Source of the DNA: Cellulosimicrobium terreum
Lineage (GTDB): Bacteria; Actinomycetota; Actinomycetes; Actinomycetales; Cellulomonadaceae
Assembly (NCBI GenBank): GCA_014803435.1
Contig: JACYFD010000002.1
Location: forward strand, 1 to 64,000
Direction: 5' to 3'
DNA length: 64,000 nt
The translations under genes were made by a program, and so were the position numbers. Each line of letters opens with the position of its first letter. The first letter of the stretch is position 1. Shown here in pieces: positions 1,984-17,215 of the stretch. Below the pieces are notes generated by a model. The model was not told the origin of the DNA and ran no database searches. It was given only the letters and a program-made list of their open reading frames with translations.

Positions 1984-3888
1984 GTGGCACGCGACGACGC
2001 AGCGCCGACGCTCGTGCGACGCGTCCTGGACCACGCGTCCGCCCGCCCCGACCACCCGGCGGTCGTCGTCGTGCGCGAGTCGGGCGACGACCTCCCGCTG
2101 ACGTATCGCGACCTCGCCGCCCGGGCCCGCGCGCTCGCCGACCACGTGCGAGCCGTGTGCGAACCGGGGGACCGCGCCCTGCTGCCGTACACGACGGGGC
2201 ACGCGTTCGTCGTCGGGCTCGTGGCCTGCCTCGACGCCGGGGTGGTCCCTGTCCCCGTCCCGCCGCCGGGTGGGCACGCCCACCAGCAGGCGCGGGTCGC
2301 CGGGATCGCGACGGACTGCGACGCGGCCGCGGTGCTCGTGGACGCGGCCGACGCGCCCGACGTCGCAGCCTGGGCCGCCACCGTCACCCACCCGGGCGGG
2401 GGAGGGCTCGTCGTCGTCCCCGTGCCCGACGAAGGCCCGCCGGTCCCCGTGGACGGCGCAGCAGGCGACGTGGTCGGGGGCGGGACGGTCCGCCCGGACC
2501 CGCTGCCCGGCGACCCGGCGTTCCTGCAGTACACGTCCGGGTCGACGAGCGACCCCAAGGGCGTCGTCGTCACGCACGCGAACGTCGCGCACCATCACGA
2601 GGTGTTCGTGCGCGAGCTCGGGCTCACGCCGCGCGACCGGTTCTGCAGCTGGCTGCCGGCGTACCACGACTTCGGGCTCGTCGGGATGCTGCTCGTCCCG
2701 CTCATGCTGGGCGCGACGACGTTCCTCATGTCCTCGTCACACTTCCTCAAGCGCCCCGCGCACTGGCTGACGCTGATCGACCGCGCAGGCGTCACGGTGA
2801 CCGCGGCGCCCAGCTTCGGGTACGAGCACTGCGTGCGGCGCGTGCGCGACGAGCAGGTGGCCGGTCTCGACCTGAGCCGCCTGCGCTGGGCGCTCAACGG
2901 CGCCGAGCCGATCGACCCGCGCACGCTCGAACGCTTCACCGAACGGTTCCGGCACGCGGGCTTCCGTCCGACGGCGCACGGCCCGGGCTACGGCCTCGCG
3001 GAGGTCACGCTCACGGTGTCGTACCCGACGGGCGCCGAGCCGCTCGTCGTCGAGGCCGACGTGGACGCGCTCGCCGCGCGGCGCTTCGAGGTCCGGCCCG
3101 GCGACGCGACCCTCGGCCCTGACGGCACCGACGACGACGGCCGCGGGGATGGTCCGGACGGCGCGCTCCGCCTCGTGGGGTGCGGCGTGCCGCGGGGGCT
3201 CGAGGTCCTGCTCGCGGACGACGCCGGCGCACCGGTGGGCGCGGGCCGGGTCGGCGAGATCTGGCTGCGCGGCGCCGCCGTGGCGGCCGGGTACTGGGGA
3301 CGGCCGGACGCGACGCGCGAGACCTTCGGCGCGACGGCCGCGGACGGCAGCGGGCCGTGGCTGCGCACCGGCGACCTCGGGGCCCTGCACGACGACCAGC
3401 TCGTCGTCACCGGCCGCATCAAGGAGCTCCTCGTCGTCGGTGGCCGCAACCTCTACCCGTACGACCTCGAGCGCGAGGTCCAGGCGGTCCACACCGGCGC
3501 GGACGGTCGCCCGGGTGCCGTCTTCGAGACCGCGGACGCGCCCGGCGTGATCGTCGCGGTGCAGGAGTTCCGCGCGCCGCGGGGGAACGGGGCGGCGGGC
3601 GGCGCGTCCGACGCGCTCGCCGAGGTCGACGCCGCGGTGCGGGCCATGGCCGCCCGTCTCGCGCAGGTGTCCGGCGCCCCGGTGGGCGACGTCGTGCTCG
3701 TGCGACCCGGCCAGGTCCGGCGCACCACGAGCGGCAAGATCCAGCGCGGCCGCACGCGCGACGCGTTCGTGCGCGGCGACCTCGACCCGATCCACTCCCT
3801 GCGCGACGCCCGCGCCCGCAGCACGTCCACGACCACCGGCCGTCCCCGGGTCCACGAGGCCCCTGACCATGCAGGGAGCCCCGCATGA
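1984..3888 (+). CDS. Fatty acyl-AMP ligase (FAAL)
   Basis: A 634-residue ANL-superfamily enzyme expected to activate a fatty acid as acyl-AMP and pass it to an ACP. The adenylation P-loop is YTSGSTSDPKG at about 183-193, and GPGYGLAEVTL is the second core motif. The catalytic lysine of the C-terminal subdomain is Lys585 in RTTSGKIQRG. SWLPAYHDFGLVGMLL is typical of FAALs rather than acyl-CoA ligases, and length fits FAAL (580-630). The start is GTG at 1984 after a GGGGGA ribosome binding site. It opens the operon, and its stop overlaps the ATG of an ACP, its likely acceptor. Confidence 0.93.
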   Translation: MARDDAAPTLVRRVLDHASARPDHPAVVVVRESGDDLPLTYRDLAARARALADHVRAVCEPGDRALLPYTTGHAFVVGLVACLDAGVVPVPVPPPGGHAHQQARVAGIATDCDAAAVLVDAADAPDVAAWAATVTHPGGGGLVVVPVPDEGPPVPVDGAAGDVVGGGTVRPDPLPGDPAFLQYTSGSTSDPKGVVVTHANVAHHHEVFVRELGLTPRDRFCSWLPAYHDFGLVGMLLVPLMLGATTFLMSSSHFLKRPAHWLTLIDRAGVTVTAAPSFGYEHCVRRVRDEQVAGLDLSRLRWALNGAEPIDPRTLERFTERFRHAGFRPTAHGPGYGLAEVTLTVSYPTGAEPLVVEADVDALAARRFEVRPGDATLGPDGTDDDGRGDGPDGALRLVGCGVPRGLEVLLADDAGAPVGAGRVGEIWLRGAAVAAGYWGRPDATRETFGATAADGSGPWLRTGDLGALHDDQLVVTGRIKELLVVGGRNLYPYDLEREVQAVHTGADGRPGAVFETADAPGVIVAVQEFRAPRGNGAAGGASDALAEVDAAVRAMAARLAQVSGAPVGDVVLVRPGQVRRTTSGKIQRGRTRDAFVRGDLDPIHSLRDARARSTSTTTGRPRVHEAPDHAGSPA

Positions 3889-4172
3889 CGACCCTCTCGA
3901 CCGCCACCCAGGACGCCGACCCCGTCCGGTCCGCCGTGCGCGACCGGGTCGTGGCGCGCGTCGCCGACGTTCTCGGTTGTGCCCCCGCCGACGTGGACCC
4001 CGCCGCGGGCCTCGCGGAGCTGGGCCTCGGTTCGGTGCAGGTCCTCGCGCTGTGCGGCGACCTCGAGGACGAGTTCGGCGTCGACGTCGACCCGGCCCTC
4101 GTCGTCGACCACCCGACGCCGGTCGCGCTCGCGGACCACCTCGCCGCACTCGGCGCGCAGGTGGCGTCGTGA
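3885..4172 (+). CDS. Acyl carrier protein (first copy)
   Basis: A 95-residue acidic carrier protein. The phosphopantetheine site is Ser50 in ELGLGSVQVL, where the usual Asp before Ser is replaced by Gly (GS instead of DS). The rest follows the four-helix PP-binding pattern, ending in VDHPTPVALADHL. The start codon overlaps the end of the FAAL gene (ATGA) and its stop overlaps the next GTG, so translation of the three genes is probably coupled. The most likely role is to receive the fatty acyl chain from the FAAL; it would be primed by the transferase at 15117. Confidence 0.9.
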   Translation: MTTLSTATQDADPVRSAVRDRVVARVADVLGCAPADVDPAAGLAELGLGSVQVLALCGDLEDEFGVDVDPALVVDHPTPVALADHLAALGAQVAS

Positions 4173-6526
4173 CCACCACCGTCGTCGACGTCGGCGCGTA
4201 CGTCCCGACCACGAGCGTCTCGATCCACGACGTCGCGACCGAGCTCGACCTCGACCGCACCGAGTTCGGCGTGTTCGAGCGGTTCTTCGGCCTCAAGGAG
4301 ATCCGCGTCGCGCCCGGCGAGGACCTCGCGGACATCCTGGTCGCCGCGGGGCGTGCCGTGCCGGGGCTCGCGGGCAACGAGCACCGCGTGCGGTACGTGC
4401 TCGGCGCCCGGACCATCGCGACCGTCGCGCCCGTCGGTCGCAACCCGCTGCACGAGGCCGCGGACCGGCTCGGCCTGGACCACGCCGTCGTGCTCACGTT
4501 CACCCAGCACGCGTGCGCATCCGCGCTCCTCGCCGTGCACCTCGCCGGGCGCATGCTCGCCGCCGACGGCGACCCGGAGGGCCTCGCCCTCGTGCTCACG
4601 GGCGAGAAGGCGTTCAGCCCGGGGTCGCGCACCATCCCCGGCACCACCGTCATGGGGGAGGGCACGGCCGCGTGCCTCGTGTCCGCGCACGCGCCGGGCG
4701 ACGAGCAGCTCGCGTACGCGACCCGCACGCTCGGCGAGTACCACCAGGTGCCCCTGCCCCCCGAGCTGCTCGCGCCCTTCGGCGCGCTCTACACGTCGGC
4801 GCTCGCGGAGGTCGTGGCCGAGGCGGTCGAGCAGGCCGGGCTGACCATCGACGACGTGCGCCTCGTGCTGCCCCACAACGTCAACCGCGTGTCCTGGAAG
4901 CGCGTGAGCCGGACGCTCGGGCTGCCGCTGGAGCGCGTGTTCCTCGACAACGTGCCGGTGACGGGCCACTGCTTCGGCGCGGACCCGCTCATCGGCTACG
5001 CCCACGTCCGGTCCACGGGCGTCCTGCGCGACGGCGACCCGTACGTCCTCGCCGCGGTCGGCCTCGGTGCCACGTTCTCCGCCATGGTCCTGCGCTACCG
5101 CGACGGGGGCCCCGGTGCCGGCACGCCCGACGACGCAGGGTCCGCGACGACCGGGGCGCAGCCGTTCGTCGCGCGGGTCAAGGAGGCGCTGACGGGCGAC
5201 GCCGAGGCGCCGCTGGTCCTGCTCGGCAACTTCGAGGTCGAGGACGAGTGGGCCCGCGGAGAGGTGGGGCTCCCATCTGTGGGCGGGTCGACGGCGACCA
5301 CCGCGCTCGTGAACCGCATGGACGAGCTGGCCGTGCTGCTCGCGGGGGCCGGGGACCACGTCGTGCTCAAGGGCACGCCGGACCCGGCCCACCTCGCCTA
5401 CCTCACCGAGCTCGGCCTGGACCTGCCGACCGTCCACGTCGCCGAGGACAGCGAGCCCGACCGGACGGTCACGCGCGACGCGCTCGCCTCGCCGGTGCTG
5501 CTGGAGCGGCTGCGCGGGCTCGCCGCGGACGGCGTCTGCCTGCTCGCGCACGGCACGTCCGAGGCCGAGGAGCAGCTCGCGGCCGCCACGGGGCTCACGT
5601 CGGTGCTCACCGGCGCCGCCACGACCAAGGCCGTGAACAGCAAGGTCTACAGCCGCGAGGTGTGCGACGAGCTGGGGATCGAGCAGGCCCGCGGCTGGGC
5701 GTGCCGCACGGTCGCGGACCTGGAGGACGCCGCGGTCGAGGCGCGCGCCGTCGTCGAGGCCGGCGGGACGGTCGGCGTGAAGGACGCCTATGGCGTCTCC
5801 GGCAAGGGCATCCTCGTCGTCGACGACGTGCGCCGGCTCGACCAGCTCGTCCGCATGGTCCAGCGCCGGGCCGCGCGATCGGGCGACGACCGGCTCGCCG
5901 TCGTCGTGGAGGTCTGGGCGGACAAGGCGACGGACCTGAACTACCACTTCACGGTCGCGCGCGACGGCGGCGTGACGTTCGACTTCGTCAAGGAGGCGAT
6001 CACGCAGGGCGGCGTCCACAAGGGGCACCGCATCCCCGCGCGCCTGCCCGCGGCGCACGTCGAGCAGATCGAGCACCATACGCAGCTCCTCGGTGCACGG
6101 CTCGCGCGTGACGGGTTCCACGGCGTCGTGGGCGTCGACGCGCTCGTGCGGACCGACGGCTCGCTGCTGCCCGTGCTCGAGATCAACGCGCGCAACAACA
6201 TGTCCACCTACACGGTGCGCCTCCAGGAGCGCCTCCTGCCCGACGACTGGGTCGCGCTCGCGCGCCAGTACCCGCTCGTCCTCGACGCACCGCTGCCGTT
6301 CGCCGTCCTGCGGGAGCGTCTCGGGGACCTGCTGTACACGCCGGGCACGGGGCAGGGCCTGGTCGTCCACGGCACCGGGACGGTGAACGCGGGCGCCGCG
6401 ACGCGGCGCGAGGGCGAGCCGTTCGCCGGACGGCTGCACGGCCTGCTCGTCGCGCCCGACGACGCCGGGCTGGCCCGGCTCGACGCCGCCGTCGCGGCGT
6501 GCCTCACCGAAGGAGACGCCCGATGA
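4169..6526 (+). CDS. Fusion of a KASIII-type ketosynthase and an ATP-grasp ligase
   Basis: A 785-residue two-domain protein. Residues 1 to about 315 are a FabH/KASIII-like condensing enzyme with a complete triad: Cys116 (TQHACASALL), His236 (LPHNVN) and Asn261 (DNVPVTGHCFG). Residues about 340-785 are an ATP-grasp ligase of the preATP-grasp type seen in BtrJ and PGM1: Lys538 and the glycine loop YGVSGKG bind ATP, and Glu671, Asn673 and Arg675 (LEINARNN) form the metal site. KASIII usually acts alone on an acyl thioester plus malonyl-ACP; BtrJ-like ligases join an amino acid to an ACP or peptide through acyl phosphate. No stop or frameshift lies between the domains, so the fusion is real in this sequence. 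The start is GTG at 4169 overlapping the ACP stop. Substrates are unknown. Confidence 0.88.
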   Translation: MTTTVVDVGAYVPTTSVSIHDVATELDLDRTEFGVFERFFGLKEIRVAPGEDLADILVAAGRAVPGLAGNEHRVRYVLGARTIATVAPVGRNPLHEAADRLGLDHAVVLTFTQHACASALLAVHLAGRMLAADGDPEGLALVLTGEKAFSPGSRTIPGTTVMGEGTAACLVSAHAPGDEQLAYATRTLGEYHQVPLPPELLAPFGALYTSALAEVVAEAVEQAGLTIDDVRLVLPHNVNRVSWKRVSRTLGLPLERVFLDNVPVTGHCFGADPLIGYAHVRSTGVLRDGDPYVLAAVGLGATFSAMVLRYRDGGPGAGTPDDAGSATTGAQPFVARVKEALTGDAEAPLVLLGNFEVEDEWARGEVGLPSVGGSTATTALVNRMDELAVLLAGAGDHVVLKGTPDPAHLAYLTELGLDLPTVHVAEDSEPDRTVTRDALASPVLLERLRGLAADGVCLLAHGTSEAEEQLAAATGLTSVLTGAATTKAVNSKVYSREVCDELGIEQARGWACRTVADLEDAAVEARAVVEAGGTVGVKDAYGVSGKGILVVDDVRRLDQLVRMVQRRAARSGDDRLAVVVEVWADKATDLNYHFTVARDGGVTFDFVKEAITQGGVHKGHRIPARLPAAHVEQIEHHTQLLGARLARDGFHGVVGVDALVRTDGSLLPVLEINARNNMSTYTVRLQERLLPDDWVALARQYPLVLDAPLPFAVLRERLGDLLYTPGTGQGLVVHGTGTVNAGAATRREGEPFAGRLHGLLVAPDDAGLARLDAAVAACLTEGDAR

Positions 6527-7938
6527 TCGCGCACGCCCCGAGCCCGGGACAGGCGGCCGAGGCATCGCCGGCCCCTGCCGCCGTCGACCGCACCCCGCCC
6601 GGCCCGGCGCCGCACGGGCCGGACGACGCGTTGTTCGCGGACGTCGCGGAACGGTTCGGCACCCCTGTCTACGTGTACGACGCGGGCGTCATGGCGACGC
6701 ACTTCCGCCGCCTGCGCGAGCGCCTGCACCCGGCCCTGGAGATCTTCTACTCGCTCAAGGCCAACCCGAACGTGAGCGTGTGCGGGGCGCTGCGCGCGCT
6801 CGGTGCCAACGCCGAGGTGTCGTCGCTCGCGGAGCTCCGCACGGCGACGGCCGCCGGCGTCCCGCCGCACGACGTGCTGTTCCTCGGGCCGGGCAAGAGC
6901 CGCTCCGAGCTGGTCGCGTGCCTCGAGGTCGGGGTGCGCGCGATCATCGTCGAGTCGTTCGGGGAGCTCGCGCTCGTCGACGAGATCGCGGCGGCCTCCG
7001 GCCGGACGGCGCGCGTCGTGCTGCGCGTCAACCCGTCGTTCGCGGTCAAGGGCAGCGGCCTGACGATGGGCGGCAAGCCGCGGCAGTTCGGCATCGACGA
7101 GCAGCAGCTGCTCGACCGGCCGGGCACCTGCGCGGACCTCCGCGCGGTCCACGTCATGGGCGTCCAGGTGTACATGGGCACCCGCATCCTCACCGAGAGC
7201 ACCGTCGTGGAGAACACGCGGCGCATCTTCGACCTCGCCGAGCGGATCGCCGCGCACCTGGGCTTCCCGCTGGAGCTCGTGGACGTCGGCGGCGGGCTGG
7301 GGGTCGCGTACTTCGAGCGCGAGTCGGACCTCGACGTCGACGTCCTGACCGAGCACCTCAACCCGGTCGTCGAGGAGTTCGCCGCCGCGCACCCCGCGAC
7401 GACGCTCGTGATGGAGCTCGGCCGCTACCTCGTCGCGACCTGCGGGACGTACGTCGCGCGCGTGCGGTACGTGAAGGAGTCGATGGGGGAGCGGTTCGCG
7501 GTCGCCGACGGCGGCACCAACCACCACATGGCGGCCGTCGGGATCGGGTCGTTCGTCAAGCGCAACTTCCCGGTGCGGCTCGTCGGGCGCGAGTCGACGG
7601 CCGAGGAGGTGCCGTGGAACGTGACCGGTCCGCTGTGCACCCCGAACGACACGATCGGCAAGGCGGTCGCCCTGCCGTCCGACGTCGGGCCCGGGGATCT
7701 CGTCGCGGTCGACCGGTCCGGCGCCTACGGACCGAGCGCGTCCCCCGTGAACTTCCTCAGTCACGGGCACCCGGCCGAGGTGCTCGTCGTCGACGGCGAG
7801 CCGCTCCTCGTGCGGCGGGCCGACACCGTCGACGACCTGCTCTCCCACCAGGTGTTCCACGACGTGACCGACCGGGTCGCACCCGCCGGGGCGCCGGAGC
7901 CGGCACCCGCCGGACGACGGGTCCCCGCACCTGCCTGA
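6523..7938 (+). CDS. PLP-dependent fold-type III decarboxylase (LysA/BtrK family)
   Basis: A 471-residue alanine-racemase-fold decarboxylase. Lys79 in FYSLKANPN is the expected PLP Schiff-base lysine; DVGGGLGV and GPLCTPNDTIG are the phosphate-binding and C-terminal active-site motifs of the diaminopimelate/ornithine decarboxylase family. The first 35 residues are a Pro/Ala-rich extension. The family includes BtrK, which decarboxylates glutamate while it is bound to the ACP BtrI. Position between an ATP-grasp ligase and an ACP gene favours a carrier-bound substrate over a role in lysine synthesis. The ATG overlaps the previous stop (ATGA). The true amino acid is not readable from the sequence. 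Confidence 0.88.
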   Translation: MIAHAPSPGQAAEASPAPAAVDRTPPGPAPHGPDDALFADVAERFGTPVYVYDAGVMATHFRRLRERLHPALEIFYSLKANPNVSVCGALRALGANAEVSSLAELRTATAAGVPPHDVLFLGPGKSRSELVACLEVGVRAIIVESFGELALVDEIAAASGRTARVVLRVNPSFAVKGSGLTMGGKPRQFGIDEQQLLDRPGTCADLRAVHVMGVQVYMGTRILTESTVVENTRRIFDLAERIAAHLGFPLELVDVGGGLGVAYFERESDLDVDVLTEHLNPVVEEFAAAHPATTLVMELGRYLVATCGTYVARVRYVKESMGERFAVADGGTNHHMAAVGIGSFVKRNFPVRLVGRESTAEEVPWNVTGPLCTPNDTIGKAVALPSDVGPGDLVAVDRSGAYGPSASPVNFLSHGHPAEVLVVDGEPLLVRRADTVDDLLSHQVFHDVTDRVAPAGAPEPAPAGRRVPAPA

Positions 7939-8010
7939 CCGTCGTGACCTGACCGCACGACCCGCAGACCAGCGCCCGCCGGGGCGCACGAGACACCACC
8001 GGAGGACCCC

Positions 8011-8283
8011 GTGAGCATCACCACCGAGCTGGACCGCGAGCGCGTCGTCAGCGCCATCGTGGAGGCGCTCTCGAGCGTCCTCGGCCGCGCGCTGCCCGAC
8101 GTCACGGAGAGCACACGCCTGTTCGCCGACCTCGACCTCGACTCCACGAGCGTCCTCGGGCTCCTCATGGCGCTCGAGGACACGCTCGAGATGGAGGTCG
8201 ACCCCGAGGCGCTCGAGCAGCACCACCTCGAGAGCGTGGGCTCGCTCACCGACTTCGTGGTCGAGCACTCGACCCCGGCCTGA
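8011..8283 (+). CDS. Acyl carrier protein (second copy)
   Basis: A 90-residue carrier protein with the phosphopantetheine serine at Ser45 in DLDLDSTSVL, a standard DS site. It is more acidic than the first ACP and differs at the recognition helix, so the two carriers probably hold different intermediates. It follows the decarboxylase by 72 bases, the largest gap in the operon, and starts at GTG 8011 after GGAGGA. By analogy with BtrI it may carry the amino acid added by the ATP-grasp domain; this is inferred from gene order. Confidence 0.9.
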   Translation: MSITTELDRERVVSAIVEALSSVLGRALPDVTESTRLFADLDLDSTSVLGLLMALEDTLEMEVDPEALEQHHLESVGSLTDFVVEHSTPA

Positions 8284-8285
8284 TC

Positions 8286-9212: not shown

Positions 9213-11116
9213 CGTCGACCTCCGGGACCGCCGTGACGGAGCCGATCCCCACGGTCCGGAACCCGGCCTCCGTCGACGCGATTCCGGTGGCCGCCGCGGA
9301 CGTGCGGGAGTCGGCGCGTGCGTCCGGTGCGGCCGCGGCGCTCGCCGTGCTCGCGTCGACCGTCCCGGTCGCGTGCCCGCCCGGCGGGTACGTCCTGCTC
9401 CCGGGGACGGTCGCCCCGCCGTCGGGCGCGCGCGAGGTCGAGCAGGTCCTGACGGACGACGCTCCGCTGAGCGTCTGGCACGTCCCTGCGGACGCCCCGT
9501 CCATGGGCTCGACCGCGCTCTGGCGGGCCGGTGTCGCGCGCGTGCGCCTCGGGCTGTGCGACCGGCTCCTCGAGCGTGCCGTGGAACGTCTGCGCGGTCG
9601 GACCGTCGCGGACACCCCGACGATCAACCTCGCGCCCGTGCGCCTCACCGTGGCGGACGCCGCGGCCGCGCACCTGGAGGCGCAGGTCCTGCTCGACCAG
9701 CCAGATGTCCCCGGAGCGGCGCGGCTCGCGACGGTCGACGCCGCGCTCGACCGGTCCCTGCGCCTCGTGCACAACCTGTTCGGCGCCTCCGGGTACGTCG
9801 ACGACGAGCCCGCGCGCCTCGCTCGCACGATCGACCTGCTCGGGCACGTCAGCGACTCGGACGCCCGGGAGGCCTCGGAGCTCGGGGAGGCCCCGGAGGT
9901 CGCGAGCCCGGAGCGCCCGCGGCCCGCGACCTGGTCGGGCCGCACGACCGGGGAGCCGGGCGACGTGGACGTCGACGCGCTGCGCGCGCACGTGCGGCCC
10001 TTCGCCAGGACACTGCGCGAGCACGCGCTGCGCATCGACCGCGACCCGGCCGCGTTCGGGGACCTGCTCGACTCGGGCGACGTCCCGTTCGCCCAGCTCG
10101 GCGGGTTCCCGCCCGGCTACCTGGACGACCCGCTGCACCTGGGCGGGCGACCGGTCTATGTCTCGACGTGCCTGGAGCGCGCCGTCGTCGCGGAGACGAT
10201 GGCGTGGGGCGACGCGTCCGTCGTCGTCGGGGCGCCGGGGCCGTCGATGTCGGGCGTGGTCGTCGACGACCTCGCCGACGCGTTCCAGCGCGACCGCTTC
10301 TACAGCCGGGTCGCCGAGCCCGGCACGTGGACGTACTTCGCCCTGACCGAGCCGGAGCGCGGGTCCGACGCGGGCGCGCTCACGACGCGCGTCGAGCAGC
10401 AGGACGACGGGTCGCGCGTCCTGCGCGGGCACAAGAAGTACGTCGGGAACGCGGCGCGCGCGAGCATCGGCGTCGTGTTCGCGCGGCACCGGAACGGGCC
10501 GCTCGGCGTCGGGATCCATCTCGTCGAGACCGACCGTCCGGGCTTCGACGCCCACGCGCTGCCGATCCTCGGGATGCGTGCCGTCCAGCTCAGCGAGATC
10601 CACCTGCGCGGCGTCCCGCTCGACCCGGCCGACACCCTGGGCGGCCACCTGTCGCCGTCCCGCCGCGGCCTCCTCGGCGCCGTGCGGACCTTCAACCGGC
10701 TGCGTCCGGTGGTCGGCGCGCTCGCCGTCGGGGTGACCCAGGCGGCGCTCGACTATGTCCACGCCGAGCGCCGGACCCTGCGCGCGGACGAGCAGCAGCG
10801 CCTCGACCGATACGCCGAGCGGCTCGTCGCCGCCCGCGCGCTCGTCCTCGCAGCCGCCGCCGCGGCCGACCGCGACGCGTCCGACGGCACGCTGTCCGCC
10901 GCGGCCAAGGCCGCCGCCGTCGGGCTCGCCGAGGAGGTCACCGCAGCGGCGCCGACCTTCCTCGGCCGTGGCGCCCGGTGGGAGCACCCGTACCTCGACA
11001 AGCTCGTCCGCGACGTGCCCGGCCTGGAGATGATGGAGGGCACGCGGACGATCCAGCGCCTCACCCTCGCGCAGGGATGGTTGCAGGGCAGGGCGCGTCG
11101 TGTCGATCTCGACTGA
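9209..11116 (+). CDS. Acyl-CoA/acyl-ACP dehydrogenase with an extra N-terminal domain
   Basis: A 635-residue protein. Residues about 250-635 are a full acyl-CoA dehydrogenase: TEPERGSDAGAL is the flavin/substrate region and Glu610 in MMEGTRTIQ matches the catalytic base of the YEGT motif. Residues about 100-230 look like a second, degenerate copy of the C-terminal helical domain (helices, then NLFGASGY), which makes the protein about 250 residues longer than usual. In FAAL/ACP clusters such enzymes introduce a double bond into an acyl-ACP; that is the likely job here. The ATG overlaps the previous stop. Confidence 0.88.
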   Translation: MTSTSGTAVTEPIPTVRNPASVDAIPVAAADVRESARASGAAAALAVLASTVPVACPPGGYVLLPGTVAPPSGAREVEQVLTDDAPLSVWHVPADAPSMGSTALWRAGVARVRLGLCDRLLERAVERLRGRTVADTPTINLAPVRLTVADAAAAHLEAQVLLDQPDVPGAARLATVDAALDRSLRLVHNLFGASGYVDDEPARLARTIDLLGHVSDSDAREASELGEAPEVASPERPRPATWSGRTTGEPGDVDVDALRAHVRPFARTLREHALRIDRDPAAFGDLLDSGDVPFAQLGGFPPGYLDDPLHLGGRPVYVSTCLERAVVAETMAWGDASVVVGAPGPSMSGVVVDDLADAFQRDRFYSRVAEPGTWTYFALTEPERGSDAGALTTRVEQQDDGSRVLRGHKKYVGNAARASIGVVFARHRNGPLGVGIHLVETDRPGFDAHALPILGMRAVQLSEIHLRGVPLDPADTLGGHLSPSRRGLLGAVRTFNRLRPVVGALAVGVTQAALDYVHAERRTLRADEQQRLDRYAERLVAARALVLAAAAAADRDASDGTLSAAAKAAAVGLAEEVTAAAPTFLGRGARWEHPYLDKLVRDVPGLEMMEGTRTIQRLTLAQGWLQGRARRVDLD

Positions 11117-12575
11117 CCAGGAGCCCGTCCGGGAGCCCGTGGGCGAGCAGGACCGGAGCACGGCCGCCGACCCGACTCCCGGCGAGCTGCGACGCAGCGT
11201 CGTCCGGCTCGCGGGGCCGGTGTGCCTCGCGCTCGTCGTGGGCGCGCTCGCGCAGCTCGCCGTCGCGGCGCTGCTGGGCCACATGGGCGACGACGCGCTG
11301 TACGTGCGCTCGCTCTACATCCCGGTCGCGTTCCTCGTCCTCGCGCTGCAGGAGGGCCTCGACGTCTCGACACAGGTCGGCTTCGCGCGCCTCCGCGGGT
11401 CGGGCGGGCGCGTGCGACCCGCGCGCAGCCTGCTCGTGCTCGGCGTCGCGGGCACCGCGCTGCTCGTCGTCGTGGCGCTCGCGGTCCTGCTCGTCGCGCC
11501 GGCGCTGGCGGGACTCCTCGACGTCCCGGCCGAGCGTGCGCGCGACTTCGTGACCTTCACCCGCTGGATGGCGCTGACGAGCGTGCTGTCCGTGCCGACC
11601 GTCGTCGCCGCCGCCGCGCTGCGTGGCTGGGGCCGCACCACGCCGTCGGCCCTGCTCTCGCTGCTCGCGGCCGGTGTCCAGGTCGGCGGGGTGTGGCTGG
11701 TCGGGCTCGTGGGCGGGACGGGTGTCATGTCCGTCCCCGTCTCCGCCGCGCTGTCGGCGGTCGTCGCCGGCGGGGCAGCCCTCGTCCTGCTGCGTCGGCA
11801 CGGGCTCCTCCAGTCCCCGACCGTGCGCCTGACCACGGTACGCACGCCGACCGAACGACGCACGACCCTGCACCTGTCCACGCCGCGCCTGCCGGCGTCG
11901 CTCGTCCGACCGGGCGACGGTGTCGTGGACGCCCGGGCGCTCCTGCTCGGCATCGGTCTTCCTGTCGGTCTGTCCTACCTGCTGCTCACGGTGACGAACC
12001 TCGTCACGGTGTGGGTGGTCGGCCCCTGGGGGACGGACGTCGTCGCGGGCTACGGTGCGGCCGCGACCGTGCAGACCCTGCTCGTCGTGCCCGCCATCGG
12101 GTTCGCCGCGGCGACGAGCGTCGTCATGAACCAGCAGTGGGGCGGCGGCCTGCTGCGGCTCCTGCCCGTGACCCTGCGCGCGGCCACCGTCGTCGTCGCG
12201 GGGATGTACGTCGCGATCGGCCTCCTCGCCCTGCTCGCCGCACCGGCTGTCGCCCGACTCATGGCCGCGGACCCCGCGGTCACGGAGCAGACCACGCTCT
12301 ACCTGCGGATCGTCGGTCCGTCGCTCGCCGGCACGGGGATCGTGCTGTTCCTCATCACGGTGCTGGAGCAGCTCGGGTACGGGCGCACGGCGGTGCTGCT
12401 CAACGTCGTGTACTTCGCGACGTCGCTCGGCGTCGGTGGGGTGCTCGCCCGGTCGGGTGGCGGACCCGTGGCGCTCTACTGGACGATCGCGGCGGTGAAC
12501 GCGGTCGCCCTGGCGGTCGTGCTCCCGATCGCCGTGCGGCTCGTGCGCCGCCGGGCCGACGAGGCGACGCCATGA
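11100..12575 (+). CDS. MATE-family multidrug/metabolite exporter
   Basis: A 491-residue polytopic membrane protein with about twelve hydrophobic segments in two similar halves, as in the MATE family of cation-coupled exporters. A 35-residue hydrophilic N-terminus precedes the first segment, and a loop near 235-265 separates the halves. The start at GTG 11100 overlaps the dehydrogenase gene by 17 bases. As the only transporter in the operon it is the likely exporter of, or self-protection against, the product. The ATGA overlap with the next gene keeps it in the translationally coupled chain. Confidence 0.88.
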   Translation: MSISTDQEPVREPVGEQDRSTAADPTPGELRRSVVRLAGPVCLALVVGALAQLAVAALLGHMGDDALYVRSLYIPVAFLVLALQEGLDVSTQVGFARLRGSGGRVRPARSLLVLGVAGTALLVVVALAVLLVAPALAGLLDVPAERARDFVTFTRWMALTSVLSVPTVVAAAALRGWGRTTPSALLSLLAAGVQVGGVWLVGLVGGTGVMSVPVSAALSAVVAGGAALVLLRRHGLLQSPTVRLTTVRTPTERRTTLHLSTPRLPASLVRPGDGVVDARALLLGIGLPVGLSYLLLTVTNLVTVWVVGPWGTDVVAGYGAAATVQTLLVVPAIGFAAATSVVMNQQWGGGLLRLLPVTLRAATVVVAGMYVAIGLLALLAAPAVARLMAADPAVTEQTTLYLRIVGPSLAGTGIVLFLITVLEQLGYGRTAVLLNVVYFATSLGVGGVLARSGGGPVALYWTIAAVNAVALAVVLPIAVRLVRRRADEATP

Positions 12576-14413
12576 CCGCCGCCCGACGACGCGGCGTGCC
12601 GTCCGTCGTCGACGACCCGGTGCTCAGCGTGGTCGTCATGCACCACCCGGCGCGCGGGTCGGTGGCGGACCTCGTCGCGGCGTGCCTGCCCCTCGACGCC
12701 CGCGTCGTCGAGGACCCCGACCCCGACGGCCCGCCGAGCCCGTTGCGGACCGCGAAGCTCGCGTGGGCCGCGGTCGCGCCCGGCGCGACGCACCACCTCG
12801 TGCTGCAGGACGACGTCACCCCGGCACCCGATCTCGCCGCCCACCTGCTCGGCGTCCTGCGGCACCGGCCGCGGCACGCCGTCGCGCTCTACACGAACTG
12901 GAACAGCCCCCACAACTCCTACCTGGTGCGCTCGGCCGCGGTCGCCGGGCAGGCGTGGGCGCCGCTCGGCCACGACGAGTGGGTCCCGACGCTCGGCCTC
13001 GTCCTGCCCGCCGACGCCGCACGACGTCTCGCCGCGTACCTCGCGACCTTCCCCGACGACTACCGGGACGACGACGAGGCGGTCCTCGCGTTCTGCGCCC
13101 GCGAGGGCCTGCCCGTCGTCGCGACCGTGCCGCACCTGCTCGAGCACGGCGCCGGACCGAGCCTCGCGGGGAACGAGGCGCACGGCCCGCGGCACGCCAC
13201 GGTCCCGCCCGTCGCGACGCCCGCGGACCGGTGGGCCGCGCCCGGTCACGACGCCTTCCCGGCCCGCCGGCCCGCGCTCGCGCACGGTGCGGCGGTCGAG
13301 CTGCGCGACTCGCGCTGCACCGTGCGCGTCCTGCGTCCGCACGCGGGCGAGCCGCTGGAGCACCCGTTCGGCTGGGACTGGGCGCACTGGTCGTGGTGGC
13401 TCGGGCACGACCCGGCGGACGTCGTCGCGGGGGTCGCGGGGATCACCCGGCCCGACGACGTCGCGCACCTTCCCGCGCACGTACCGGCGGAGGTGGGCGC
13501 GGCGTGCTGGTTGCTCGGTGCCGACGCCGCGCGGACGGACTGGCTGACCCCGGCACGCACGGGCACTCCCGCTCGCGCGGGTGAGCCGTCGGACCCGCGG
13601 ACCCTCGCGGTGCGCACGTGGGTGCTGTCGGGCGTGTCCGCCGCGGACCTCGGCCCCGACCCCGCGCTGTCGGTCGACGCGCTCGTGCGCGTCGGCCTCG
13701 ACGCCCTCGCGGCAGGCGAACGCGCCGCCACCGCCGACGGAGTACCCCAGTCCACCGGGGTAGGACCGCAGTCCGTGGCGGGAGGGCAGGCCGTCGACCC
13801 CGTGACCGCGGCCGTGGACGTGCTCGCGCGCGGGGAGGCCGAGGTCCTGTGCGGACCGGCGCACGACGGCGTCCCCGCGGACGTCCACGTCCTGCCCTGC
13901 CCGGGGTGCGCCGTGGACCCTGCCCAGGCCGCTGCCGTGCTCGCCGCGTCCTGCGGTGCGGGCGGCGTCGTGCGCTACCGCGCAGGTTCGCCCCCGACGA
14001 CGCCGCCCGCCGGGCCGTCGGTCGCCGCCCCGACGTCGGGCCGGGCGACCGTCGAGCTGCTCGCGTGCGAGCGGCCGCCGGTGCGCGGATTCCTCGCGCT
14101 CGAGCCGGGCCGCCACCACGTGACGCGCGCGGTGTGGCTCGCGGCCTCGCACGACGACGCACCGGGCAGGTCGCAGGACCCTGCGGACGCGATCGTCCGG
14201 CTCGCCGCCGCAGAGTCGGCGCAGGCGCTCGCACCCGGCAGCGGAGGCACGGCCGCGACGGGAGGTGCGGTCGACGAGTCGTGGTCGCCCCGGATCCTGC
14301 CGCTGCAGACGGGCACGTCGCCGTTCGGGCAGCCGCACCACGACGGCGCGAACCCCGGGCTCGCACGGCGCTACGCAGCCGTCCGGCTCGCACGTGCGCG
14401 GGAGCTGCTGTGA
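12572..14413 (+). CDS. Glycosyltransferase-like protein with a long uncharacterised C-terminus
   Basis: A 613-residue protein. Residues 1 to about 215 have GT-A features: an initial strand LSVVVMHHP, a DDxxP-type metal site in HLVLQDDVTPAPD, and a downstream TLGLVLP acceptor region. The remaining 400 residues are Ala/Pro-rich, contain a Trp-rich patch (FGWDWAHWSWW) and a segment AAVDVLARGEAEVL that resembles ketosynthase cores, but no complete domain is recognised. A sugar donor or acceptor cannot be named. It is coupled to its neighbours by ATGA overlaps on both sides. The glycosyltransferase call is moderate; it could be a catalytically dead relative. Confidence 0.55.
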   Translation: MTAARRRGVPSVVDDPVLSVVVMHHPARGSVADLVAACLPLDARVVEDPDPDGPPSPLRTAKLAWAAVAPGATHHLVLQDDVTPAPDLAAHLLGVLRHRPRHAVALYTNWNSPHNSYLVRSAAVAGQAWAPLGHDEWVPTLGLVLPADAARRLAAYLATFPDDYRDDDEAVLAFCAREGLPVVATVPHLLEHGAGPSLAGNEAHGPRHATVPPVATPADRWAAPGHDAFPARRPALAHGAAVELRDSRCTVRVLRPHAGEPLEHPFGWDWAHWSWWLGHDPADVVAGVAGITRPDDVAHLPAHVPAEVGAACWLLGADAARTDWLTPARTGTPARAGEPSDPRTLAVRTWVLSGVSAADLGPDPALSVDALVRVGLDALAAGERAATADGVPQSTGVGPQSVAGGQAVDPVTAAVDVLARGEAEVLCGPAHDGVPADVHVLPCPGCAVDPAQAAAVLAASCGAGGVVRYRAGSPPTTPPAGPSVAAPTSGRATVELLACERPPVRGFLALEPGRHHVTRAVWLAASHDDAPGRSQDPADAIVRLAAAESAQALAPGSGGTAATGGAVDESWSPRILPLQTGTSPFGQPHHDGANPGLARRYAAVRLARARELL

Positions 14414-15120
14414 CGGCGCTGCGGGCCGTGTGGGAGTGGTCGGGGTCGGGACTGCTCCTCGACCTCGACGGGACGCTCGTGGACTCGGCCGCAGCGATCG
14501 AGCGGCACACGACGTGGTGGGCGCAGCGGCTCGGGCTGGACCCCGCGACCGTCATCGAGGCGTCGCACGGCCGCCGGGACGCCGAGATCGTGCCGCTCGT
14601 GGCGCCGTGGGCGGACACCGCGGCCGAGGTTGCCTGGCTGCACACGCTGTCCTGCGACGACACGTCGGACGTGGTGGCCGTCCCCGGCGCGGCGGACCTG
14701 CTCGCGGCGCTCGCGCCCGAGGCATGGGTCGTCGTGACCTCGGCGGCGCACGACGTCGCGCTGGCCCGGCTCGACGCCGCCGGCCTCCCGCGGCCCCGGT
14801 TCCTCGTGTGCTCCGAGGACGTCCTGCACGGCAAGCCGGACCCCGAGGGGTTCCTGCGGGGCGCGGCGCTGCTGGGGCTCGACCCGCGGTCGTGCCTCGC
14901 GCTGGAGGACTCGGACGCGGGCGTGAGCGCCGCCGTGCGTGCCGGCGCGAGCGTGGTCTCCGTGGGACCGTCGCCGGTCCCGGGCGCGGACTGCGGGGTG
15001 GTGGACCTCGCGGCGGTCACGGTCGAGCCCGACGGCGACCTGACCCGGGTGCGGGTCCTCCGCGGCGCAGGCGCAGCATCGGCCGGGCCCGCGCTGACCG
15101 CGGCGGTCGGCCGACCATGA
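14410..15120 (+). CDS. HAD-superfamily phosphatase (subfamily IA)
   Basis: A 236-residue haloacid-dehalogenase hydrolase. Motif I is DLDGTLVDS with the nucleophile Asp of DLDGT, motif II is the Ser/Thr of VVVTSAAHD, motif III Lys lies in HGKPDPEGF and motif IV is LALEDSDAGV. The sequence is closest in style to sugar-phosphate and glycerol-phosphate phosphatases with an alpha-helical cap. In this operon it may remove a phosphate from a sugar or alcohol intermediate. The start is GTG at 14410 overlapping the previous TGA. The substrate is unknown. Confidence 0.88.
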   Translation: MTALRAVWEWSGSGLLLDLDGTLVDSAAAIERHTTWWAQRLGLDPATVIEASHGRRDAEIVPLVAPWADTAAEVAWLHTLSCDDTSDVVAVPGAADLLAALAPEAWVVVTSAAHDVALARLDAAGLPRPRFLVCSEDVLHGKPDPEGFLRGAALLGLDPRSCLALEDSDAGVSAAVRAGASVVSVGPSPVPGADCGVVDLAAVTVEPDGDLTRVRVLRGAGAASAGPALTAAVGRP

Positions 15121-15824
15121 CGTCGCCCGAGCCGCGCGCGACCGCGGTCGACGTGTGGGAGGTGGACCTGACGGACCCGGCGCGCCGCTCGCCGGGTGCG
15201 TCACCCGCCGAGCCGCGGACGGAGCTCGTCGACCGCCTGGGCGGGCGGGTCCTGGGACCGGCCGAGCGCCGTCGGGCAGCGACGTTCGCGTCGGAGGACG
15301 CCGCGCGCCGGTACGTGCTCTCCCACGTCGCGGTCCGCGACGTCCTCGCGCGCCGGACGGGCGTGCCCGCGGGGCGCGTCGAGTGGGCGGTCGGCACGCA
15401 CGGCAAGCCCGGGCCCGTGGGCGGTGTCCGCTGGAACCTGAGCCACAGCGGGGAGCGCGCGCTCGTCGCGGTGAGCGCCGCGCGGGACGTGGGGGTCGAC
15501 GTGCAGCACGCGGACCCGGCGGTCGACGTCGACCGGCTCGCCCGGCGCTACCTGCCCGGGTCCGTCGGCGGGGACCGGGCGGCGACGTGGGCGGCGTTCG
15601 CGCGGCTCGAGGCGTGCGTCAAGGCGATCGGCTGCCGGCTGCTCGACCTGCGCACGCTCGACGTCCGCGCACCCGGGCTCGTGACCTGCACGGACGGTGC
15701 GCTCGCCGGCCGGCGGTGGTGGGTGACCGACCTCCCCGCCCTCGACGGGTACGTGGCGGCGTGCGCGACGCCCGGACCCGCGCCCCACACGACCCGCCGC
15801 CGACCAGCGAGGAACCTCCCGTGA
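15117..15824 (+). CDS. 4'-phosphopantetheinyl transferase (Sfp type, divergent)
   Basis: A 235-residue protein of the Sfp family that would transfer phosphopantetheine from CoA to the two ACPs of the operon. The core WNLSHSGERALVAVS and the motif VGVDVQ are clear. The usual GxDxE metal motif has Gln in place of Glu, and the WxxKEAxxK motif reads FARLEACVKAIG, keeping the Glu but not Trp or Lys. These changes may reflect altered metal binding or reduced activity. The last 20 residues are Pro/Arg-rich. The ATG overlaps the phosphatase stop. Confidence 0.85.
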   Translation: MTSPEPRATAVDVWEVDLTDPARRSPGASPAEPRTELVDRLGGRVLGPAERRRAATFASEDAARRYVLSHVAVRDVLARRTGVPAGRVEWAVGTHGKPGPVGGVRWNLSHSGERALVAVSAARDVGVDVQHADPAVDVDRLARRYLPGSVGGDRAATWAAFARLEACVKAIGCRLLDLRTLDVRAPGLVTCTDGALAGRRWWVTDLPALDGYVAACATPGPAPHTTRRRPARNLP

Positions 15825-17215
15825 CGACGACCCTCGAGCCCCCCTGCACCCTGCACCGCGTCGAGGTCCTGGGTGCGTCGTCGGGCACCGCACCGGCGAC
15901 GTGGGGCCAGACGGCGATCCGCCGGGCGCTCGCCGCGCTCGCACCGCTCGATCACCAGTTCAACGTCGTGTGGGGTGGTGCCGTCCCGTCGCCCGTGCCG
16001 GTCGACGACGCCCTGGGCGTGCTGCGCGACCTGCTCCTCCTGCACGACGCGCTGCGCACCGTGCTGCGTGACGACGACGTCGTCGGTGGCACGGGCTACG
16101 TCCAGGTGCTCCACGGCGACGGTGGGATCGACGTCACCGAGCGCGCGGTGGAGCGGCCCGACGACGCGGCCGAGGCCGTGCAGCACCTGCGGGACGCGCT
16201 CTGGGGGCGCCCGTTCGACCACGCGCACGAGTGGCCCGTCCGCGCCGGCCTGGTCACGGTCGACGGCCTGGTCCACCACGTGGTGGTCGTCGTGTCCCAC
16301 ACGGCACTGGACGGATGGGGGCTGCCCGTCCTCGACGCGTCGCTCACGGCGCTCGCGGGCGGCACCGACCTGGCGACCGTGCGGGCGCGGCAGCGCGCCC
16401 GCACCCCGCTGGAGGAGGCGCGGTGGCAGGTCTCGCCCGAGGGTGAGCGTCACGACGCGGGCGCCCGGGAGCGCGCGCTGCGGACCATGCGCGCGGCGCC
16501 GGTCGAGGTGTTCCCGCTCCCGGGGATCGGTCCGGTGGGCGCACCGAGGTACCGGCAGGCGGTCCTGCGGAGCCGCCGGCTCGCCACCGCCGCGGACGCT
16601 GCGGCCGCGCGGCTGGGGACGACGGCCTCCACGGTGCTGCTCGCGGCGTCGAGCCTGGCGCTCGCCCGGGCCGGCGGTCGCGACGACTGCGTGCTCCAGG
16701 TCATGGTGAGCAACCGTTTCCTGCCGGGGCTCGCGCGCGTGGTCGCGCCGATCGCGATGGAGGGCCTGCTGCACGTCGACGGGCTCCGTTCGACGGCGTT
16801 CGACGACGTCGTCCCCCGGGTGTGGGGCGCGTGCATGACGGCGTACCGGTCGGCGTACTACGACAAGGACCGACTCGTGCGCGACGCCGCGGCGGACCCG
16901 GACGCGGTGTTCGACGACTCCTGCTGGTTCAACGACCGGCGCGGTACCGGCCCCGACCCGCACCTGCACGCGGACCCCACGCCGCGGCGTCGGCTCGCGT
17001 GGGGGGACGCGCCGGAGAACCAGGGCGGGATCACGCTCGCCTTCCACCACGTCGACGCGCCGCCGCGCGCCGACGGCCGTCCCGGCGGGGTCGACCTGGT
17101 CCTGACGGTCGACACGCGCCGGATCGACGAGGCCACCGCGGAGACCGTGCTGCGCGACACCGAGCGGCTCGTGCTCGACGCGCGCGCTCACGCCCGGCGC
17201 GCGAGCTCCGGGTAG
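15821..17215 (+). CDS. Stand-alone condensation-domain protein
   Basis: A 464-residue single-domain member of the NRPS condensation/chloramphenicol acetyltransferase superfamily. The core motif reads SHTALDG: the catalytic second His is His160 and Asp164-Gly165 are kept, while the first His is Ser159. The C-terminal half ends in a bridging-region pattern (QGGITLAFHHVD). Free-standing domains of this type join an acyl or aminoacyl group on one carrier to an amine or alcohol. It is the last gene of the operon and could link the fatty acyl and amino units. GTG at 15821 overlaps the transferase stop; its 3' end overlaps the convergent gene by 28 bases. Confidence 0.85.
   Translation: MTTTLEPPCTLHRVEVLGASSGTAPATWGQTAIRRALAALAPLDHQFNVVWGGAVPSPVPVDDALGVLRDLLLLHDALRTVLRDDDVVGGTGYVQVLHGDGGIDVTERAVERPDDAAEAVQHLRDALWGRPFDHAHEWPVRAGLVTVDGLVHHVVVVVSHTALDGWGLPVLDASLTALAGGTDLATVRARQRARTPLEEARWQVSPEGERHDAGARERALRTMRAAPVEVFPLPGIGPVGAPRYRQAVLRSRRLATAADAAAARLGTTASTVLLAASSLALARAGGRDDCVLQVMVSNRFLPGLARVVAPIAMEGLLHVDGLRSTAFDDVVPRVWGACMTAYRSAYYDKDRLVRDAAADPDAVFDDSCWFNDRRGTGPDPHLHADPTPRRRLAWGDAPENQGGITLAFHHVDAPPRADGRPGGVDLVLTVDTRRIDEATAETVLRDTERLVLDARAHARRASSG

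Follow-up and report, generated by a model that had tools for sequence, protein, structure and literature searches.

In the butirosin pathway, carrier-bound glutamate is converted to GABA by BtrI, BtrJ and BtrK, with BtrK acting on glutamyl-ACP. A BtrK-like enzyme, BolN, also occurs in the bolagladin (bol) pathway of Burkholderia gladioli, together with the ACP BolC, KASIII homologues and the acyl-CoA-dehydrogenase-type enzyme (ACAD) BolQ, all of which have counterparts in the locus described here; the bol enzymes make one dehydro-beta-alanine beneath the fatty acyl cap, and the pathway uses a VinN-type A domain, a tetramodular NRPS and a citrate-derived fatty acid (PMC7756342). Deletion of bolN abolishes bolagladins, and BolN has been proposed to act on carrier-bound aspartate, whereas deletion of bolQ gives dihydro compounds saturated in the beta-alanine and not in the chain (PMC7756342). 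The AFC-BC11 (afc) pathway of Burkholderia has neither a modular NRPS nor a C domain and shares with our locus a fatty acyl-AMP ligase (FAAL), a free carrier, a PLP decarboxylase, KASIII-like acyltransferases and an ACAD-type dehydrogenase, with a VinN-type A domain activating Asp (PMC12186527). Its FAAL, carrier, A domain and decarboxylase have been reconstituted in vitro, where the decarboxylase acted on carrier-bound aspartate, the FAAL itself N-acylated carrier-bound tri-beta-alanine, and the KASIII-like AfcL held and transferred the peptidyl chain, acting at release; AFC-BC11 contains three dehydro-beta-alanines, and light-driven isomerisation and decay hampered its isolation (PMC12186527). 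In Streptomyces, enamidonin, autucedine and olenamidonin are cyclic lipopeptides with acyl-dehydro-beta-alanine; published peptides of D-Dpr, L-Dpr, Gly and Phe carry this group, with a 3-oxoacyl-ACP synthase as the proposed enzyme for attaching the acyl chain (PMC11204786).

The window analysed here (64,000 nucleotides of a Cellulosimicrobium-type genome) contains 12 co-directional ORFs at 1984-17215, all on the plus strand. The twelve same-strand genes of the original prediction are thus present, and its ATGA/GTGA junctions hold, from the coordinates, as 4-base overlaps at 8 of the 11 junctions; the other 3 are a 17-base overlap between the ACAD and MATE genes and gaps of 72 and 2 bases flanking the ACP2 gene. 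The predicted divergent LuxR gene above the operon (1162..1752, minus strand; start uncertain, with the frame open further upstream) matches GerE at 37.9 bits (cut-off 23.5), and a LuxR-type gene lies divergent to the FAAL gene in all 12 same-genus loci read. Pfam families were matched above cut-off for the FAAL, both ACPs, the decarboxylase, ACAD, MATE, HAD and condensation proteins, as predicted. The locus is present in 12 of 16 other genomes of the genus, 2 of these copies (L032 and L043) ending at contig ends, and the search for the same gene order that had been suggested as a check found it whole in the remaining 10 (L031, L033-L041). With the order kept in these genomes, the arrangement is more than chance; pN/pS was below 1 for all 14 modules in each of 3 pairwise comparisons.

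The first gene encodes the FAAL (1984..3888; start GTG at 1984 or 2014), which matches Pfam AMP-binding at 224 bits; its best NCBIfam model, fatty-acid--AMP ligase, scores 354 bits, below the cut-off of 775. Among the 17 PDB sequences listed for it, 7 are FadD23, FadD28, FadD32 or a fatty acyl-adenylate ligase, the top three carry the name polyketide synthase and two amino-acid adenylation domains close the list. The ACP1 gene (3885..4172; PP-binding 60.9 bits, Ser in GLGSVQ), for the likely fatty acyl carrier, overlaps the FAAL gene by 4 bases, and the ligase is predicted to be of the FAAL rather than the acyl-CoA-ligase type, with a partner ACP. The FAAL is the sole AMP-binding match on the 728-kb contig holding the window, so that there is no modular NRPS beside the operon, and the VinN-type L-Asp-activating A domain is absent from an operon in which an ATP-grasp protein is present.

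This protein forms the C-terminal half (5120..6526) of a 785-aa ORF whose N-terminal half (4169..5119, boundary approximate) is KASIII-like; Pfam ACP_syn_III_C (58.9 bits) and PreAtp-grasp (67.9 bits, cut-off 27.5) lie above cut-off and ATP-grasp itself below. Because the ATP-grasp profile matched nothing in the PDB and the protein's matches to Asp-Met ligase and other ATP-grasp families are weak, the substrate of this proposed aminoacyl-ACP2 ligase is not fixed by sequence. A profile of its close relatives matches 1 of 396 sampled genomes of the phylum, its own, and distant homologues exist elsewhere. The next gene (6523..7938) encodes a PLP decarboxylase with BtrK (7ru7/2j66) as best PDB matches (318 bits; the next family, diaminopimelate decarboxylase, reaches 172); this places it in the BtrK type, and a carrier-bound amino acid is its predicted substrate. 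ACP2 (8011..8283; PP-binding 39.2 bits, Ser in DLDSTS), the proposed aminoacyl carrier, is 82-83% identical to both relatives compared. The PDB matches to BtrK and to FadD23/FadD28/FadD32 thus bear out the proposal that one operon joins a FAAL/ACP arm to a BtrK-type arm for a carrier-bound amino acid.

The KASIII half contains Cys116, His236 and His267; the Cys is kept in the window, whereas the bol homologues have Ser/Thr. His267 falls on the Asn of KASIII chains in the alignment, a position partly selected by our search pattern GHCFGAD. THL (8286..9212), identified from profile matches, lacks the catalytic Cys and is a proposed partner of KASIII. For this protein, earlier labelled thiolase-like, neither Pfam nor NCBIfam gave a match at E 0.1; a broad profile weakly matches the N-halves of KASIII chains (best E 2.6e-4), and a narrow profile matched no PDB chain. 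Downstream lie a half-ACAD (9209..9913, boundary approximate), comprising the acyl-CoA-dehydrogenase C-terminal helical domain only, and a complete ACAD (9914..11116; Acyl-CoA_dh_M and _1 above cut-off), which retains the Glu of MMEGTRTIQRL that we take to be catalytic. The half-ACAD profile matches the C-terminal region of SCAD (E 7.5e-7), although it gave no match to the profile of the operon's own ACAD.

Relatives carry 14 genes for the 12 ORFs of the window. KASIII and ATP-grasp are separate genes in all 11 relatives read, and half-ACAD and ACAD are two genes in all 9 examined (L040 was excluded from this comparison); at both sites the relatives' junction is ATGA, where the window is fused. 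The KASIII/ATP-grasp fusion of the original prediction is therefore present but peculiar to this lineage, as is the half-ACAD/ACAD fusion, and we gave the former no mechanistic weight. Sequencing error is an unlikely source, because at both junctions the ATG is missing and not shifted, and because another locus, L074, also has a fused half-ACAD/ACAD ORF, of 643 aa.

The distal genes encode a MATE exporter (11100..12575; MatE 109.9 bits), an accessory protein (12572..14413), a HAD-family phosphatase (14410..15120; Hydrolase 57.9 bits), a phosphopantetheinyl transferase (15117..15824) and a free-standing condensation domain (15821..17215; 49.3 bits, cut-off 30.6) with SHTALDG in place of HHxxxDG. 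The transferase call remains provisional, its ACPS match of 21.4 bits being below the cut-off of 25. The accessory protein, conserved over its first 200 aa, had been called glycosyltransferase-like; neither a recognised fold, nor a match in Pfam or NCBIfam at E 0.1, nor a credible PDB match was found for it. It occurs in 2 of 396 genomes of the phylum, its own included, and had no match in the Pseudoclavibacter genome. An acyl-amino-acid-type product remains the best guess from the joined arms; its glycosylation finds no backing in the HMM or PDB matches.

Outside the genus, the core of KASIII, ATP-grasp, BtrK-type decarboxylase, ACP, the degenerate KASIII-like THL, half-ACAD and ACAD was found, whole or in large part, in 23 loci. 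Three Streptomyces loci (L066, L067 and L070) contain a homologous core (decarboxylase 66-69% and ATP-grasp 54% identical to the window's) after which come a CysK/SbnA-like gene and the beginning of an NRPS; NRPS and diaminopropionate-type (SbnA-like) genes adjoin the core in L066, L067 and L112, and the SbnA-like gene of L066, its start possibly cut, reaches 341.8 bits with the SbnA model, whose cut-off is 349.95. The NRPS layout, fully read in S. nigrescens alone, is C-A-T-E-C-T / C-A-T-C-A-T-TE, with the E domain deduced from a C-like domain plus TIGR01720; it fits enamidonin/autucedine, an assignment made by gene layout and not from the sequence of the published aut cluster. The S. nigrescens strain of L067, HEK616, is a streptoaminal producer. 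A streptoaminal/5-alkyl-tetrahydroquinoline assignment was rejected: the published stm cluster, of nine genes, contains two KS/CLF sets and an aminotransferase (PMC12187902). Acyl supply varies around the core: the window and Pseudoclavibacter have FAAL and ACP1, S. aculeolatus has a type I PKS with AT-ACP, and in other loci the core lies next to NRPS genes.

The BtrK-type decarboxylase, KASIII-like acyltransferase, free ACP and ACAD by which dehydro-beta-alanine lipopeptide pathways are recognised in sequence are all found in the window, which we do not file under the bolagladin/AFC-BC11 branch but which would work like it. The window differs from afc in its ATP-grasp enzyme, second ACP and C domain, and its genes include no citrate-synthase arm. 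It shares the core run from KASIII to ACAD with the layout-assigned enamidonin-type loci but lacks their NRPS and has its own FAAL, ACP1, free C domain, MATE, accessory protein and HAD. The combination of ATP-grasp, ACP and BtrK-type decarboxylase follows butirosin logic, with ACAD, KASIII and FAAL added and the aminoglycoside context missing. The earlier statement that no named pathway has this gene set thus holds for the whole set as far as searched, whereas the core can be recognised within dehydro-beta-alanine lipopeptide pathways; no Cellulosimicrobium product structure was found in searches of open-licence literature.

We propose, with a probability of roughly 0.6, that the product of the operon is an N-acyl dehydro-beta-alanyl (enamide) compound assembled with no modular NRPS, the best reading being an NRPS-free variant in which ATP-grasp replaces the VinN-type A domain. 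The FAAL would activate a fatty acid and load ACP1, and the ATP-grasp enzyme would load an acidic amino acid, most likely L-aspartate via its beta-carboxyl, onto ACP2, where the BtrK-type enzyme would decarboxylate it to beta-alanyl-ACP2. KASIII and its degenerate partner THL would move the acyl group from ACP1 onto the free amine, ACAD and half-ACAD would desaturate N-acyl-beta-alanyl-ACP2 to the dehydro-beta-alanyl enamide, and the C domain would hand the thioester to an amine or alcohol acceptor, which the accessory protein and HAD phosphatase may shape. The role of the C domain is a guess, since no strong match to a free C domain lies within the 10 kb read on each side of the NRPS-type loci L066, L067 and L070. 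MATE would export the product, the phosphopantetheinyl transferase would arm both ACPs and LuxR would control the operon. The KASIII role may be wrong, because in AFC-BC11 the FAAL performed N-acylation and AfcL acted at release.

This proposal draws on the BtrK-like decarboxylase, on the bolagladin and AFC-BC11 experiments as precedent, on the varying acyl supply around the same core, and on the homologous Streptomyces core beside an SbnA-like gene and an NRPS fitting acyl-dehydro-beta-alanine peptides. It is weakened by the missing match between half-ACAD and the operon's own ACAD, and by the best-matching decarboxylase itself, since BtrK acts on glutamyl-ACP: glutamate loaded via its gamma-carboxyl would give GABA-ACP2 and, once ACAD had acted, an N-acyl-4-aminocrotonyl compound able to cyclise to an acyl pyrrolinone. 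We consider glutamate unlikely, given that carrier-bound aspartate is the proposed substrate of the bolagladin BtrK-like enzyme and the substrate demonstrated in vitro for the AFC-BC11 decarboxylase, and that one of the Streptomyces clusters with the homologous core has an NRPS layout predicting a dehydro-beta-alanine peptide. Somewhat less probable still is the original prediction, read as modification of the fatty acyl chain by ACAD (and KASIII), with no desaturation of the decarboxylated amino acid and with amide formation by the C domain that is indeed present in the operon. ACADs usually act on acyl chains, but an 814-aa protein in the related locus L084 combines decarboxylase and ACAD, ORFs of the same kind probably occur in five more loci, and the ACAD-containing core is kept in some loci that show no FAAL in the up to 10 kb read on each side. 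This fusion, which also speaks for the enamide, and the published precedent, including the saturated beta-alanine after ACAD deletion in the bolagladin producer, make action on the amino-acid part more likely (PMC7756342; PMC12186527).

Least probable of the alternatives, and by our estimate a long shot, is that KASIII and THL form a heterodimer like PqsBC and make a C-C bond, extending or joining acyl groups to a keto-amine or heterocycle. The Cys-His-His set, with His at the KASIII Asn position, would suit such chemistry, and THL resembles a KASIII N-half and adjoins a KASIII gene in L042 too; PqsBC is a heterodimer, and Cys-His-His triads are known from other ketosynthases. However, holding acyl or peptidyl groups and passing them to amines is the role proposed for related KASIII-like enzymes, and demonstrated in vitro for AfcL, and the similarity of THL to KASIII is weak (profile-comparison probability 2.9%, no match with the narrow profile), which also weakens the THL-KASIII partnership within the enamide proposal.

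A Dickeya locus, L085, contains homologues of the decarboxylase, THL (2), KASIII (2), ACAD (2), ACP and phosphopantetheinyl transferase, and a THL profile trained without proteobacteria matches its proteins at 52-80 bits. It is the vfm locus, which serves quorum sensing in this plant pathogen: in ORFs 4606-6180 and 6143-7714, the core-motif residues match the codes published for VfmO2 and VfmP2 of strain ZYY5, as compared by eye over part of the code positions. Solanimycin was rejected for the Dickeya matches, its gene set being different (PMC9765074). The vfm locus has three A domains, the first VinN-like, instead of the window's ATP-grasp and FAAL, as well as a sensor kinase and response regulator recognised by eye; no C-domain or MATE match was found in the 20.9 kb read. 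The Vfm signal, for which no structure was found in searches of open-licence literature, may contain beta-alanine or dehydro-beta-alanine. Tentatively, and at less than even odds, both loci could represent a widespread and hitherto unrecognised enamide-lipid module, in which VfmM, the BtrK-like decarboxylase and the ACADs would convert aspartate to beta-alanine/dehydro-beta-alanine, ATP-grasp would replace the A domain in Cellulosimicrobium, and the product of the operon there would be an enamide lipid of that family, secreted and under LuxR control.

Enamide (acyl-dehydro-beta-alanine) lipids were found described for few natural products only, and instability to light like that of AFC-BC11, if general, might explain why such molecules escape detection (PMC12186527). 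The analysis gives a pathway conserved in a genus but so far uncharacterised a testable structure class, puts forward a route to carrier-bound beta-alanine by way of ATP-grasp and makes the chemistry of the Vfm signal a matter of concrete prediction. The findings further point to the dehydro-beta-alanine module as portable, combining with fatty acyl, polyketide or peptide partners.

Open reading frame (ORF) coordinates and Pfam searches confirmed the predicted twelve-gene operon with overlapping junctions: 12 co-directional ORFs occupy positions 1984–17215 on the forward strand of the window, with 4-base overlaps at 8 of the 11 junctions and a LuxR-type gene diverging from them. Matches above the Pfam cut-off identified the FAAL (AMP-binding), two ACPs, KASIII with PreATP-grasp, the decarboxylase, the acyl-CoA dehydrogenase (ACAD), the MATE exporter, the HAD protein, and the condensation (C) domain. 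The phosphopantetheinyl transferase (PPTase) scored under its cut-off, and neither the degenerate KASIII-like protein (THL; 8286–9212) nor the 12572–14413 protein, earlier called glycosyltransferase-like, matched any family in the Pfam/NCBIfam search. Genes encoding glycolipid-binding, DUF1801, and RF-1-domain proteins border the operon (17188–17817 and 338–1150); some flanking genes lie on its opposite side in relatives, indicating that the flanks have been shuffled.

The original prediction of a KASIII/ATP-grasp fusion holds for the window, where both parts lie in a single ORF, but not for the 11 relatives read, all of which carry separate genes divided by an ATGA junction. An ATGA junction likewise divides the ACAD gene from a preceding half-ACAD gene in 9 of the 9 relatives examined, and the start codon/stop is missing at both fusion junctions in the window. 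The locus in relatives thus comprises 14 genes rather than the 12 of the window. The half-ACAD covers the helical C-terminal portion of an ACAD, with SCAD as its closest PDB match (E 7.5e-7). This suggests that it forms a two-subunit dehydrogenase with the ACAD, although comparing its profile with that of the ACAD in the operon gave no match. A Kitasatospora locus contains a 643-aa half-ACAD/ACAD ORF (L074:14768–16699) resembling the fused ORF of the window.

Searching 59 genomes, including the source genome, with the fusion protein yielded matches in 14: the source genome, 12 of the 16 other congeneric genomes, and a genome from another genus of the family (G029), in which only the KASIII part was matched. 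The four same-genus genomes without a match were G003, G008, G013, and G014, the last being 83% complete. The gene-order search recovered all 14 modules, in order, in ten loci (L031 and L033–L041); loci L032 and L043 stop at contig ends, and the divergent LuxR gene is present at all 12 same-genus loci. In three pairwise comparisons among the window, L031, and L033, pN/pS was below 1 for every module, ranging from 0.27 to 0.61 for KASIII, ATP-grasp, decarboxylase, ACP2, and ACAD and from 0.49 to 0.85 for THL, half-ACAD, PPTase, and the 12572 protein; these ratios are probably biased upwards, because G+C-rich codons restrict synonymous change. The C-domain motif reads SHTALDG in the window, AHTAADG in L031, SHLALDG in L053, and LHAAVDG in L061, and the catalytic second His is present in all four rows in which the motif was located; in the other 5 of 9 rows, the simple pattern hit a different stretch or nothing. 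Contig QAPD01000069.1 (L045), labeled Sphaerisporangium cinnabarinum ATCC 31213, carries the Cellulosimicrobium operon, and its name looks wrong.

A scan of genome contigs based on the KASIII alignment, which demands the patterns QHACASAL and GHCFGAD and therefore misses relatives lacking them, yielded 66 loci. These were scored with module profiles whose training rows came from Actinomycetota, apart from a single one from Bacillota. An ATP-grasp gene was found in 31 of 37 Actinomycetota/Bacillota loci, many of whose rows were also in the training set and some of which are cut by contig ends; 23 of the 31 belong to genera other than that of the window. With the same overlap with the training set, decarboxylase was detected in all 31, THL in 28, ACAD in 24, and the run KASIII–ATP-grasp–decarboxylase in 27. 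The 29 proteobacterial loci, none of them in the training set, contained decarboxylase (26), THL (23), and ACAD (25), and none matched the ATP-grasp profile, trained without proteobacterial rows.

Surroundings of the core vary. Pseudoclavibacter L053 has the order FAAL–KASIII–ATP-grasp–decarboxylase–ACP2–THL–half-ACAD–ACAD–MATE–PPTase–C, with ACP1 detected by tblastn; nothing in this genome matched the N-terminal 233 aa of the 12572 protein, and HAD matches were weak and on contigs other than that of the C domain. S. aculeolatus and Streptomyces sp. CNH099 have, in the position of FAAL and ACP1, an AT-type ORF and a large PKS ORF (AT-ACP and KS-KR-DH by Pfam in L054), with HAD upstream and a 12572-type protein after C. 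A CysK/SbnA-like gene and the beginning of an NRPS come after the core in three other Streptomyces strains: S. nigrescens, S. endophytica, and Streptomyces sp. NRRL S-337. A KASIII–THL pair also occurs at L042:9238–10895 and in L075 and L077 (Myceligenerans), with ATP-grasp and decarboxylase unmatched within the stretch read around it; in L042 it lies, by eye, near an adenylation/ammonia-lyase-like ORF and may serve another pathway. Another genome of the class encodes a 43% relative of the first 200 aa of the 12572–14413 protein (L044:8676–10628), by eye near two IucA/IucC-like ORFs.

The S. nigrescens NRPS layout (C-A-T-E-C-T / C-A-T-C-A-T-TE), in which the first of four carriers precedes an inferred epimerase, one module has no A domain of its own, and a thioesterase is present, would closely fit enamidonin/autucedine-type peptides. 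For such lipopeptides, PMC11204786 proposes acyl attachment via a 3-oxoacyl-ACP synthase. In PMC7756342, deletions showed that bolagladins require the BtrK-like BolN for production and the ACAD BolQ for the double bond, and N-acylation of beta-alanyl-ACP was proposed for a KASIII homologue. For AFC-BC11, PMC12186527 describes in vitro reconstitution of Asp loading and decarboxylation, with the KASIII-like AfcL storing and transferring the chain, whereas the FAAL, not the KASIII enzyme, makes the N-acyl bond, acylating a tri-beta-alanyl carrier.

By sequence, the window decarboxylase is BtrK-type and the ligase FAAL-like, and its KASIII retains Cys116 and His236, with His267, partly selected by the scan pattern GHCFGAD, at the Asn position of KASIII. 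Decarboxylase and ACAD form a single 814-aa protein at L084:11253–13697, Pfam-checked in that locus, and the other alphaproteobacterial loci L091, L094, L098, L101, and L102 have ORFs of similar length (~810 aa), which argues that both enzymes act in sequence on one carrier. Together with the precedents, these features favor a product passing through an N-acyl-dehydro-beta-alanyl thioester, and the earlier interpretation of a fatty acyl-amino acid-type product is supported in part. The main rival has glutamate, rather than the aspartate proposed here, as the amino acid loaded.

A related module occurs in Dickeya quorum-sensing loci. The vfm loci of D. oryzae ZYY5 (L085:427–15753) and D. undicola 2B12 (L087) encode a decarboxylase, two THL, two ACAD, two KASIII, an ACP, and a PPTase, and L085 has, by eye, three stand-alone A-domain ORFs and a kinase/regulator pair. 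Residues in two of these A domains match the codes published for VfmO2 and VfmP2 of ZYY5; the first of the three would by elimination be VfmM. Its best single-stretch PDB match is 3wvn (VinN), at 224 bits, against 245–287 bits summed over two stretches for multi-module synthetases. An Arg follows YGLTECH in this domain, as in each of the 8 vfm-like first A domains selected, and follows YGLTEAF in all three of L104, L106, and L107; VfmO and VfmP of L085 lack the corresponding Arg. AfcQ is reported to use such an Arg, Arg311, with Lys503 lying 192 residues further (PMC12186527); compared by residue spacing, the Arg–Lys distance is 184–194 in the 9 of 11 rows in which the Lys pattern was found. 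Two papers of 2022 (PMC9306890 and PMC8860905) gave the structure of the Vfm signal as unknown, and our search of open-licence literature found none. The vfm module and its Arg-bearing, VinN-like A domain predict that this signal would contain a beta-alanine or dehydro-beta-alanine unit. The outcome is a sharper, testable product class for the operon and a wider link worth following.
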